Positions 5,823 to 43,065 of a stretch of DNA of 43,065 bases are shown here, one piece after another (position 1 is the stretch's first letter; every line of letters begins with the position of its first letter). The notes beneath the pieces are model-generated. The model was not told the DNA's origin, made no database searches, and saw only the letters and a program-made list of their open reading frames with translations. The DNA is taken from positions 1-43,065 of the forward strand of contig JAFWJH010000006.1 of assembly GCA_017511645.1 (NCBI GenBank), given 5' to 3'. Both the position numbers and the translations under genes were made by a program. This stretch comes from Candidatus Saccharimonadota bacterium (GTDB taxonomy: Bacteria > Patescibacteriota > Saccharimonadia > Saccharimonadales > Saccharimonadaceae).

Positions 5823-8255
5823 CTATAGTTCGCCCCAGTTTTGGCCGGTAGAAACTTCGACGGCGAGCTTGATATCCAGCTCGGGCGCGACGTTTTCCAT
5901 TTCCTGCTGAAGAATCTTGGCGACGTTTTTGGCAATAGATTCGTCGCATTCAACGATGAGCGAATCGTGGACTTGCATAACAAGCTCGGCGCCCTTAGGC
6001 AAGGCCTTGTCTACATTAATCATGGCGCGTTTCATGAGGTCGGCTTCGGTGCCCTGAATCGGCATATTCTGAGCGGCGCGTTCAGCGGCTTGGCGTATTA
6101 GAAAATTAGTAGATTTGACATCTGGAGTAGGGCGACGACGGCCATAAAAAGTCTCGACATAACCTTGCTCGCGAGCTTGCTTTAAAATGCTCTCGAGTTT
6201 GCGTTTGATAGGAGCACGAAGCTCAAAATAATTGTCAATAAATTTCTTGGCTTCTACCACCGACATCTTGGCGGCGTCGGCAAGACCCTTAACACTCATT
6301 CCATAGAGCACGCCAAAGTTGATCACTTTGGCGGCGCGGCGCTGGTCTTTGGTAACTTGGTTAAATGGTACATTAAACGCCTCTGATGCAGTCTTGGTAT
6401 GAATATCAATACCAGAATTAAAATCATCGATCAGGGCTTGATCACGAGCAAGGATCGCAGCAAGGCGAAGCTCAAACTGAGAGTAATCGGCCGAGACCAA
6501 AACCTTGCCCTTTGGCGCAATAAAGCCAGTGCGAATACGCTTGCCTTCACCGGTACGGACGGGAATATTTTGGAGATTAGGGCTTTGAGAAGAAAGACGG
6601 CCGGTAGCGGTGACATTCTGGGTAAAGGTAGTGTGGATACGGTCATGATCGTCGGCCAGATCGGGCATAGGAATAATATAGGTGGAGAGAAGCTTTGAAG
6701 CTTCGCGGTATTCGATAATTTTAGCAATAATAGGGTGGAGATCTTTTAATTTTTCTAACTCTTTGGCGCCGGTGGAGTAGCCGCGAGAAGTTTTTTTAAT
6801 TCCCTTGGTTGGTAAACACAAATCTACAAATAATACGTCACCGAGCTGATAAGGCGAGTTGAGATTGAACTCTTTGCCGGCGAGGGCAAAAATCTCGTCC
6901 TCGATGCGGCTGACTTCGGCGGAATATTCATTTCGAAGTTCGGCGAAATAAGCGCTGTCGATCAGCATACCCTTTTTTTCCATTTTGTACAAAACTGGAA
7001 TTAGGGGGAGATCAAGCTGTGTTAAGACTTCGAGGAGTTTGGGGTATTTTTCTAAGACAGACTTTTGCGAGGCATATTCTTCTTCGGGAACTGTTAGTGT
7101 AGGCTGTTCGCGGGATAGTGGGTTTAGAAGGAAGGCGGCTTGAGAGAGGTCCCAAAAGGGTTTGCCGCGCAAGATTTCCTTGGCGATCTTATCACTGCTA
7201 TGCATGATTGATTTGATATCCCAGCCAATGATCATATCTGCCGGAACGTTCGTTCGAGGCTCATTCGACCTCGCTCGTTCGCGCACGTCGTCACGTGGCT
7301 CACTCACTTCGCTCGCCTCGTAAGGCTCGCGGGACACGGTCTCTTGAGCCTCAAAGCGAACGTTTTGAGTGCCAGTATCAGTTTTTTGTATCTTTCGAAT
7401 CAATGAGTTAAACTCTAGCTTCTTCAACCCAGCGACGACTCGGTCGCGGTCGAAACGGAAGTCGGGGAGGCTAGCGAGGTCAACGGGAGCATCAAACATA
7501 ATTTGTGCGAGCTCACGCGACATATAGGCACTGTCCTTCCCTGCCTCAAGCTTGGCCTTGATCGAGCCAGTGATTTGAGCAATATTTTTATAAATACCGT
7601 TTAGATCGCTGTACTCGTTTAATAATTTTGCAGCGGTTTTTTCGCCGATGCCCGGCACACCAGGAATATTGTCTGAGGCATCACCCTTTAAGGCTTTGAG
7701 GTCGAGGAATTGAGATTTTTTGATGCCGTACTTTTGCTCGACTTCTGACACATTTATTTGTTCAATATTGGAAAAGCCTTTTAGAATACGCCACATGTGG
7801 GTATTTTCATCGACAATTTGAAGCATATCGAGATCGGATGAAATAATATAAGTCTCGTATTCGCACTCACCGTCGGAGCCAAGGGTTTCGTCGGCCTGAC
7901 GACTGAGTGTACCAATAATGTCATCGGCCTCATAATTATCAATCTCAACAAAATCCCAGCCTAAATCGCCAACTAGCTCTTTTAATAGCGGGATTTGTGC
8001 ATAAAAATCGTTACCAGGCTTGATGCGTCCAGCCTTATAGTCTGGGTAGATTGCTCGACGACGCGAAACAGAAGTTTTAGAATCCCAAGCTACTACTACT
8101 TTGGTGGGGTTTATTCTTTTAACAATTTCCATAGCGATAGCAGCAAAACCATAGATACCACCAGTAGGCGTACCATCAGATAAACTCAAAGGGCCCATGG
8201 CATAATAGCCACGATAAAAAACTGATTTACCATCGATGAGGACTAATTTTTTCAT
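5823..8255 (-). CDS. polA: DNA polymerase I
   Basis: PolA fills gaps and removes RNA primers. The 810-residue protein has an N-terminal 5'-3' exonuclease (about 1-290, with EADDIIG and the DNIPGVPGIGEKTA helix-hairpin-helix), a middle domain, and a polymerase domain with motif A DYSQFELR (about 587), motif B KVINFGVLYGM (about 645) and motif C MQVHDSLIVE (about 763). The middle domain keeps the shape of the 3'-5' exonuclease (FWDLSQAAFLLNP) but not its metal-binding acidic residues, as in Taq and Bacillus enzymes, so no proofreading is expected. A Ser/Glu/Arg-rich insert (about 298-340) lies between the exonuclease and middle domains and is related to an insert in the tlyA-like gene. It is the last gene of a three-gene operon; the gap to the gene before is 1 base. 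Confidence 0.97.
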   Translation of the reverse strand: MKKLVLIDGKSVFYRGYYAMGPLSLSDGTPTGGIYGFAAIAMEIVKRINPTKVVVAWDSKTSVSRRRAIYPDYKAGRIKPGNDFYAQIPLLKELVGDLGWDFVEIDNYEADDIIGTLSRQADETLGSDGECEYETYIISSDLDMLQIVDENTHMWRILKGFSNIEQINVSEVEQKYGIKKSQFLDLKALKGDASDNIPGVPGIGEKTAAKLLNEYSDLNGIYKNIAQITGSIKAKLEAGKDSAYMSRELAQIMFDAPVDLASLPDFRFDRDRVVAGLKKLEFNSLIRKIQKTDTGTQNVRFEAQETVSREPYEASEVSEPRDDVRERARSNEPRTNVPADMIIGWDIKSIMHSSDKIAKEILRGKPFWDLSQAAFLLNPLSREQPTLTVPEEEYASQKSVLEKYPKLLEVLTQLDLPLIPVLYKMEKKGMLIDSAYFAELRNEYSAEVSRIEDEIFALAGKEFNLNSPYQLGDVLFVDLCLPTKGIKKTSRGYSTGAKELEKLKDLHPIIAKIIEYREASKLLSTYIIPMPDLADDHDRIHTTFTQNVTATGRLSSQSPNLQNIPVRTGEGKRIRTGFIAPKGKVLVSADYSQFELRLAAILARDQALIDDFNSGIDIHTKTASEAFNVPFNQVTKDQRRAAKVINFGVLYGMSVKGLADAAKMSVVEAKKFIDNYFELRAPIKRKLESILKQAREQGYVETFYGRRRPTPDVKSTNFLIRQAAERAAQNMPIQGTEADLMKRAMINVDKALPKGAELVMQVHDSLIVECDESIAKNVAKILQQEMENVAPELDIKLAVEVSTGQNWGEL
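7272..7334 (-). repeat. in-frame repeat element inside polA (copy 1)
   Basis: A GC-rich stretch, unlike the rest of polA, codes for a Ser/Glu/Arg-rich linker including SEPRDDVRERA. Its best-conserved part aligns with the insert in the tlyA-like gene (37168-37225) at about 24 of 30 bases, in the same reading frame; the flanking part also shares TACGAGG and GCGG blocks. It lies in a domain linker, where extra residues would be tolerated. Confidence 0.6.
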
Positions 8256-36830: not shown

Positions 36831-37493
36831 TTAATCTAGTGTCAAGCAGTAAAAACGCTCCAGATTACCATTCTTGCCAGCGAGATCATTGTCACGTTTT
36901 TTAACAATAACGAAGTTGTTTTCTTTCAACCAAGATTCAAAATTTTTGATAATTTCACGACGAATTTTTTCATTTTTGACCACACCTTTATTCAATTGAT
37001 CTGGACGAGCTTCAAATTGAGGCTTCAACATGACAAGAAAATCTGTATTTTTGTATGACAAATGATCTTTGGCATGCCTTAAAATCTTAGTCAAAGATAT
37101 AAATGATACATCTGCAACGATAATGTCTGGAGTTTCAATAGAAACAAGTATATTATCTTCTTCGGGGCGCTCCTTGCTCCCGTCTTCACGGGGCTCGTCG
37201 CTGAGTCCTCGTAGCGACTGCGGATTCCCCTCAGAAGACAATATATTTGTTTCTACATTAAAAATATCAGTTTTTTCGTGCAGCTCTATTCTAGGATCAT
37301 AGCGAAGCGGAGATTTCATTTGGTTGGTTCCCTTCTCTACCGCAATGACTTTTTTTGCGCCATGTTCAAGCGCAATCTCGGTAAAACCGCCCGTAGAAGA
37401 GCCAATATCTAACACAACCTTGTTTTTGAAATCAAAATTGAAGGCGCGTACAGCACCTTCAATTTTGTAGTATCCTCTATTTTTTGCGTTCAC
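36831..37493 (-). CDS. TlyA-like rRNA methyltransferase without S4 domain
   Basis: TlyA methylates the 2'-OH of rRNA cytidines. The 220-residue protein has only the FtsJ-type catalytic domain: GYYKIEGAVRAFNFD, the SAM loop VLDIGSSTGGFTEIA, DIIVADVSFISLTKIL and LVMLKPQFEARPDQL. The S4 RNA-binding domain that normally precedes it (about 60 residues) is absent. The start is GTG at 37493, 17 bases inside efp, with no clear ribosome-binding site. An in-frame Ser/Glu/Arg-rich insert (about residues 80-108) contains the repeat element at 37168-37225. Confidence 0.85.
   Translation of the reverse strand: MNAKNRGYYKIEGAVRAFNFDFKNKVVLDIGSSTGGFTEIALEHGAKKVIAVEKGTNQMKSPLRYDPRIELHEKTDIFNVETNILSSEGNPQSLRGLSDEPREDGSKERPEEDNILVSIETPDIIVADVSFISLTKILRHAKDHLSYKNTDFLVMLKPQFEARPDQLNKGVVKNEKIRREIIKNFESWLKENNFVIVKKRDNDLAGKNGNLERFYCLTLD
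37168..37225 (-). repeat. in-frame repeat element inside the tlyA-like gene (copy 2)
   Basis: This stretch codes for LSDEPREDGSKERPEED-like residues and aligns with the polA insert (7272-7334), best over the 30 bases coding for EPR(D/E)D. It contains the inverted repeat GTCGCT/AGCGAC (37197-37218). It splits a loop of the methyltransferase domain between the acidic loop and DIIVADVSF. Confidence 0.6.
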
Positions 37494-42888: not shown

Positions 42889-42963
42889 TAGGCTGTCGCC
42901 AAGTGGTAAGGCAATGGGTTTTCGTCCCATCAGTCGCAGGTTCGAATCCTGCCAGCCTAGCCA
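42889..42963 (+). tRNA. tRNA-Glu (TTC)
   Basis: The acceptor arms TAGGCTG and CAGCCTA pair fully, so the first pair is U1-A72. The anticodon stem ATGGG/CCCAT has loop TTTTCGT (anticodon TTC). The T stem GCAGG/CCTGC has loop TTCGAAT. The discriminator is G and CCA is encoded. The U1-A72 pair and D arm look like tRNA-Gln, but the anticodon is that of Glu. Confidence 0.9.
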
Positions 42964-42973
42964 GAATCAGAAG

Positions 42974-42997
42974 AAGACTCCAAGGGAGTCTTATTTT
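42974..42997 (+). terminator. terminator of tRNA-Glu
   Basis: AAGACTCC (42974-42981) and GGAGTCTT (42985-42992) form an 8-bp stem around AAG, followed by ATTTT. An outer pair CAGAATCA/TGATTCTG (42962-42969 and 42997-43004) extends the hairpin. Confidence 0.8.
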
Positions 42998-43065
42998 GAT
43001 TCTGATTAATTTGGCAGGATGAGAACCGAAGGTTCGGACGCTGTAGGAGTCGAATGAATATCCCA

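Follow-up and report, generated by a model that had tools for sequence, protein, structure and literature searches.

Rickettsia palindromic elements fall into several families of palindromes, about 100-150 bp long, that have entered numerous conserved genes without disturbing their reading frames; the genes are unrelated to one another, and the host-dependent bacterium that carries them has a small genome (Ogata 2000, 2002, as reviewed in PMC10969869). How such small DNA comes to spread within conserved genes has remained unexplained. MITEs are another kind of small dispersed sequence; their terminal repeats are common to the copies and are usually flanked by direct target duplications. The REP/BIME elements moved by RAYT proteins are much shorter and mostly extragenic (PMC3733652). 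Finally, in the template switch at quasipalindromes (the Ripley model), a nascent strand serves as its own template at a hairpin, the two arms become complementary, and the strand returns to the template (PMC7202029). The open literature searched contained nothing relevant on palindromic elements of Saccharibacteria or Patescibacteria, in agreement with the preliminary description of the DNA analyzed here. The elements reported below provide a counterpart to the Rickettsia elements in another phylum. They number in the hundreds, many orthologous sites can be compared in empty and filled form, and insertion has left a footprint that can be read, so that the mechanism becomes testable.

The window, a 43,065-nt stretch of DNA (contig JAFWJH010000006.1), comes from a tiny, host-dependent bacterium whose genome is represented by 0.52 Mb and is 77% complete. 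Related in-frame inserts had been proposed to exist in its polA and tlyA-like genes. The existence of the two inserts, their reading frame and their relatedness are confirmed: an exact match to GAGCCNCGTGANGACGNG occurs at these two places and nowhere else in the 0.52-Mb genome, where the reversed control pattern has no match (with 3 mismatches allowed, the chance expectation in the window is 0.65 matches). The edges assigned at first, 7272-7334 and 37168-37225, were too narrow, as the inserts are complete imperfect palindromes of 117-120 bp. Five randomized sequences generated from the window with a first-order Markov model had no inverted repeat at the scan threshold, and the fold energies of the polA and tlyA copies are 6.1 and 8.2 standard deviations below those of shuffles. 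The relevant features are as follows.

5823-8255, minus strand: polA-like gene, 810 aa, carrying the first element (ORF; orthologues in 39/40 relatives).
7245-7364, minus strand: family B element in polA, entire palindrome (inverted repeat scan; RNA fold z -6.1; R2 match 7244-7365).
7345-7364, minus strand: upstream arm of the polA element on the gene strand, AACGTTCGCTTTGAGGCTCA (inverted repeat scan).
7264-7344, minus strand: core of the polA element (87-89% over 79-84 nt to cores of other genomes).
7284-7297, minus strand: central hairpin of the polA element, CACGT-GACG-ACGTG (pattern match, fold).
7245-7263, minus strand: downstream arm of the polA element, complementary to 7345-7364 (inverted repeat scan).
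36831-37493, minus strand: tlyA-like gene, 220 aa, carrying the second element (ORF; orthologues in 37/40 relatives).
37139-37255, minus strand: family B element in tlyA, entire palindrome (inverted repeat scan; RNA fold z -8.2; R2 match 37140-37254).
37227-37255, minus strand: upstream arm of the tlyA element, TAGAAACAAATATATTGTCTTCTGAGGGG, first core helix included (inverted repeat scan).
37168-37226, minus strand: core of the tlyA element (sequence comparison with other elements).
37179-37192, minus strand: central hairpin of the tlyA element, CCCGT-GAAG-ACGGG (pattern match, fold).
37139-37167, minus strand: downstream arm of the tlyA element, complementary to 37227-37255 (inverted repeat scan).

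In the fold of each copy, the two arms pair as an outer stem, which is followed by an inner helix bearing two hairpins. What they have in common is a three-way-junction core with a hairpin of the CCCGT-NNNG-ACGGG type; the cores share sequence and the arms are unrelated. Hence, the shared repeat noticed initially does exist, but it is merely the core of a longer palindrome, and the 6-bp inverted repeat seen in the second copy is the central hairpin, which in the polA copy reads CACGT-GACG-ACGTG. The pairs of the latter hairpin are the best kept of the alignment. Over 83-85 nt, the tlyA core shares 89-90% identity with elements that lie in a different gene in genomes G006 and G069, and the arms are again unrelated.

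A plain DNA search of the window's genome with the polA insert returned the insert alone, because what the copies have in common is the core structure and parts of its sequence; structure-based models were therefore used. Stretches of related genomes were scanned for hairpins, two families were defined from these, and covariance models were built for them (R2 for family B, R1 for family A), the polA and tlyA copies both being members of the R2 training set. The further copies anticipated in the genome were found in this way, R2 identifying a total of nine. Across the genus, R2 yields 793 matches in 59 of 60 genomes and R1 277 matches in 40 of 60. The family B core is the three-way junction of the window's two copies, and the family A core is short (TAAgnCTTGGCC-NNNN-GGCCnnGAGcg). 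Strong R2 matches beyond the training set, such as G000:C4:61583-61699 (E 5e-23), indicate that the definition of the family is not circular. In the alignment, 26 of 31 pairs have changed on both sides. The genus includes Candidatus Nanosyncoccus alces, its other members being mostly ruminant-gut Saccharibacteria assemblies. Beyond it, a single family B match was obtained, in one of the 116 other genomes of the order (sample of 119 genomes, 3 of them in the genus), and this genome belongs to the same taxonomic family. Scanning eight sources with Rfam 15 at the gathering score returned tRNAs only, leaving the elements unmatched, and all cores detected with a profile of the core alone were flanked by arms.

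Gene context was scored in a 1.18-Mb sample containing 76 B and 41 A copies. An ORF runs through 67 of the former and 20 of the latter; within ORFs, 58 copies of the two families are in sense and 29 in antisense orientation. Among the host genes are those for the isoleucyl- (ileS), valyl-, leucyl-, alanyl- (alaS) and arginyl-tRNA synthetases, as well as mnmA, tsaD, truB, lepA, typA, ligA, queA, tatD and polA; some genes carry two copies. All parsed ileS inserts keep the frame (two loci outside the pattern were left out). Some sense copies specify EPRxDG-like peptides, and copies also occur in antisense and in other frames. The open frames suggest that the inserts are translated as peptides. 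Core enzymes of these reduced bacteria, tRNA synthetases among them, contain lineage-specific insertions of roughly 25-40 residues, which bear on gene annotation and structure prediction.

Insert-free orthologues were found for tlyA and ileS. The tlyA site is a loop between EKTDIF and ADVSF that is short, and thus empty, in 68 orthologues and long in 24 (parsed set, in which some loci were fetched twice); the long loops contain cores of family A or B, in either orientation, or else smaller inserts of other kinds. Of 118 genomes, about two thirds have an uninterrupted and thus empty ileS site, and in roughly one third an insert divides it. Since many species are empty at these two sites and others carry unrelated copies, insertions recur. 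Related genomes have the same inserts in orthologous positions (L295/L296 and L300/L301). No A or B insertion was found between nearly identical strains; the G080 and G120 genomes, compared for fresh insertions over 22 kb alignable at 89% identity, showed no gain of either family.

Several other insertions and length differences came to light in these comparisons. A 187-bp palindromic insertion of a type other than A or B lies between two genes of G120 (L409 8578-8764) and is absent from G080 (L419), where neither of its arms is present. In ileS, L303 (G120) differs from L302 (G080) by a 75-bp in-frame insertion in the loop that closes the central hairpin of a B element; the insert starts with GACGG and is followed by GACGG, and the surrounding sequence is nearly identical. 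The tlyA loop of L185 (UBA3218, the closest relative of the window's tlyA) has a small palindrome without a core, GTGAGCTCAGC-TATG-GCTGAGCTCAC, at the element site. At PolA residues ~290-340 (gene at 5823-8255 of the window), the linker is short and highly variable within the genus, and up to some 50 residues longer in other families of the order.

The arms, about 20 bp in length, are complementary within each copy, but from one copy to another they show no relationship, even where the cores reach 99-100% identity. For example, two G006 copies (in alaS and mnmA) have 75 identical core bases and unrelated arms. The mean similarity of B arms stays at about 0.40 in all bins of core identity from 0.4 to 0.95 (0.41 at 0.4-0.6; 0.40 at 0.9-0.95) and is 0.46 in the top bin, which holds 8 pairs. 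Shuffled arms score slightly lower (0.35), a difference that reflects a weak common pattern, approximately GA..C...AAATA.T.CTTT. Exceptions with shared arms are neighboring G005 copies (L081 13317/15000) and the A copies of G060. Pairing of the arms extends some 21-22 nt outward before falling to background, and a conserved tandem G.A/A.G mismatch marks the boundary between arm and core. Direct target-site duplication, hinted at by a near repeat at tlyA (GTAGAAACA / ATTGAAACT), was sought at the edges of 75 copies and no direct-repeat signal was found.

The origin of the arms is most apparent in ileS. The empty L267 reads GAAGAGCTCGAAAATACTTC where the upstream arm of the filled L299 is GAGGAGCTCGAAAATACTTT; in a longer view, L267 has GACTCCGAAGAGCTCGAAAATACTTCAAATTC, and L299 has GACTCCGAGGAGCTCGAAAATACTTTC before the core and an inverted copy, GGGAAGTATTTTGAGCTCCTC, after it. 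This alignment indicates that the upstream arm is native gene sequence and that the other arm is its inverted copy. Among 23 ileS sense copies, the upstream arm is the closer one to empty sites in 17 and the worse in 2 (19 untied). The net gain is mostly 80-100 nt, as opposed to 110-130 nt for the palindromes, as expected if one arm was already present. At tlyA the net gain, that of the window's copy included, is near the whole palindrome; therefore, either the ancestral loop was longer or both arms are mostly new there. In tlyA of L009 and L208 it is the downstream arm that looks native, and in the antisense mnmA copy of L383 it is the upstream arm. By these comparisons, the native side varies between copies and is not fixed. 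A rule placing the native arm 5' on the element strand would fit ileS and tlyA L009 but is contradicted by mnmA L383. In one case, tlyA L209, the last few bases of the inverted copy seem to match the native sequence downstream.

As anticipated in the preliminary description, these are dispersed palindromic elements that enter coding genes in frame, and they share with Rickettsia palindromic elements their size, their palindromy, their entry into unrelated protein genes and the existence of insert-free orthologues. Unlike those elements as described, the copies reported here have only the core in common, and their arms are site-specific and, in ileS, derived from the target; furthermore, they sit in either orientation. 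Arms made of a flank and its inverted copy find no mention in the descriptions compared. Thus, the elements behave like Rickettsia palindromic elements and yet, judging from the descriptions of the latter, are a distinct kind; their sequences make up families of their own. With MITEs they share small size, dispersal, inverted repeats at the ends and the lack of a transposase gene, but their arms are unrelated between most copies even at 99-100% core identity, and the 75 copies inspected have no direct target duplication. A folded single strand with polarity is reminiscent of REP/BIME elements and their RAYT (Y1) proteins; however, the elements described here are much longer and mostly genic (compare PMC3733652), and no Y1 transposase was found in 15 genomes of the genus.

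Arm mismatches bear on the question of which strand folds. With similar arms removed, the element strand has 63 G.T against 15 A.C mismatches (p 4e-8), counts that shared ancestry of core-near positions has perhaps inflated. The excess is seen in either orientation, at 24 v 7 in sense copies and 28 v 5 in antisense copies. On the host mRNA strand there is no excess of G.T over A.C (22 v 20 elements), nor is there a G.T excess in the bases outside the arms. The relevant structure, or the synthesis that produced it, therefore belongs to the element strand, as RNA or as single-stranded DNA, and host mRNA structure is not the reason; selection at the mRNA level received no support from this wobble test.

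Altogether, we favor as the probable explanation that each insert is a copy of a small mobile element, non-autonomous, of which the core moves and one arm is a self-templated inverted flank. The moved unit would be a core of ~75 nt, with two hairpins on an inner helix. Insertion would bring in this core and place beside it an inverted copy of ~20 nt of flanking target sequence. The original flank, the core and the inverted flank would together make up a single long hairpin, whose arms differ from site to site. This would most likely happen by a self-templating template switch, in which a strand with the folded core at its end primes on the adjacent flank, copies it and then rejoins the chromosome, sometimes at a short match. 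In-frame landings in tolerant loops would survive and be translated as linkers. This model, the best supported of those considered, is related to the nascent-strand template switch at E. coli quasipalindromes (PMC7202029), with the differences that those events improve existing quasipalindromes, while here the core is foreign and some 20 nt would be copied. Weighing against it are the varying native side, the nearly full gain at tlyA, the arms shared by some copies, the lack of an A or B gain between nearly identical strains, and the 187-bp palindrome of another type, both arms of which are new. The elements may, we suggest tentatively, typify a class of mobile DNA whose insertion gives an inverted rather than a direct target duplication, each copy drawing its stem from the host gene and the element determining the strand polarity. 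Neither a transposase nor any other mover was identified. A Y1 transposase received no support from the genomes of the genus mentioned above. Reverse transcriptases are present in 39 of the 60 genus genomes and absent from 21; copy number is no higher where they are present, and copy-rich, near-complete genomes lack them (G052, 99% complete, has 28 copies); this enzyme, too, receives no support as the mover.

Identical cores sitting in different arms could also arise if the core entered older palindromes by ordinary transposition or gene conversion, the arms being old and the cores exchanged between sites. The few core-less small palindromes at element sites (tlyA L185; ileS L275 and L281) and the nested 75-bp insert in the hairpin loop of L303 would fit this scheme. 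We nonetheless consider it unlikely, given that no matching palindrome is present in the insert-free tlyA orthologues or at most ileS sites that lack an insert, and that the ileS upstream arms match empty relatives and are therefore native gene rather than old element. The same match to the native gene weighs against arms that are carried by the element and diverge fast through compensating changes or palindrome correction, as do the unrelated arms of copies with 99-100% identical cores. Compensating changes do occur between orthologous copies (L036/L037 and L192/L195), the arms shared by the L081 pair and by the G060 A copies agree with such descent, and correction of quasipalindromes is known in E. 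coli (PMC7202029); still, this alternative seems to us improbable.

The strong folds and the covariation (26/31 pairs) might be taken to mean that selection maintains the hairpins in the host mRNAs, as signals for pausing, folding or processing. The balance on the mRNA strand (22 v 20), the richness of the element strand in G.T even in antisense copies (28 v 5) and the lack of the insert in many orthologues make this very improbable. An origin as inverted chimeras, through assembly or amplification, deserves mention since most of the genomes are metagenome assemblies and the window's genome is 77% complete, but it can hardly account for inserts that recur at orthologous sites (L295/L296 and L300/L301), lie in frame and have cores conserved in 59 of 60 genomes.

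Palindromes other than those of families A and B were also encountered. Larger ones, ~165-200 bp and of at least one further type, lie at L068 9553-9731, L077 16573-16751 and L078 9246-9425; ileS of L298 and L310 also holds larger palindromes, and some of these larger sequences are within ORFs. In the window itself, at 42889-43027, downstream of a tRNA-Glu gene, a terminator-like hairpin continues into sequence that repeats the 3' part of the tRNA in inverted form, the arms of the palindrome being 42939-42981 and 42985-43027. Similar palindromes are found at L069 73-178, L076 2533-2624 and L077 8963-9057.
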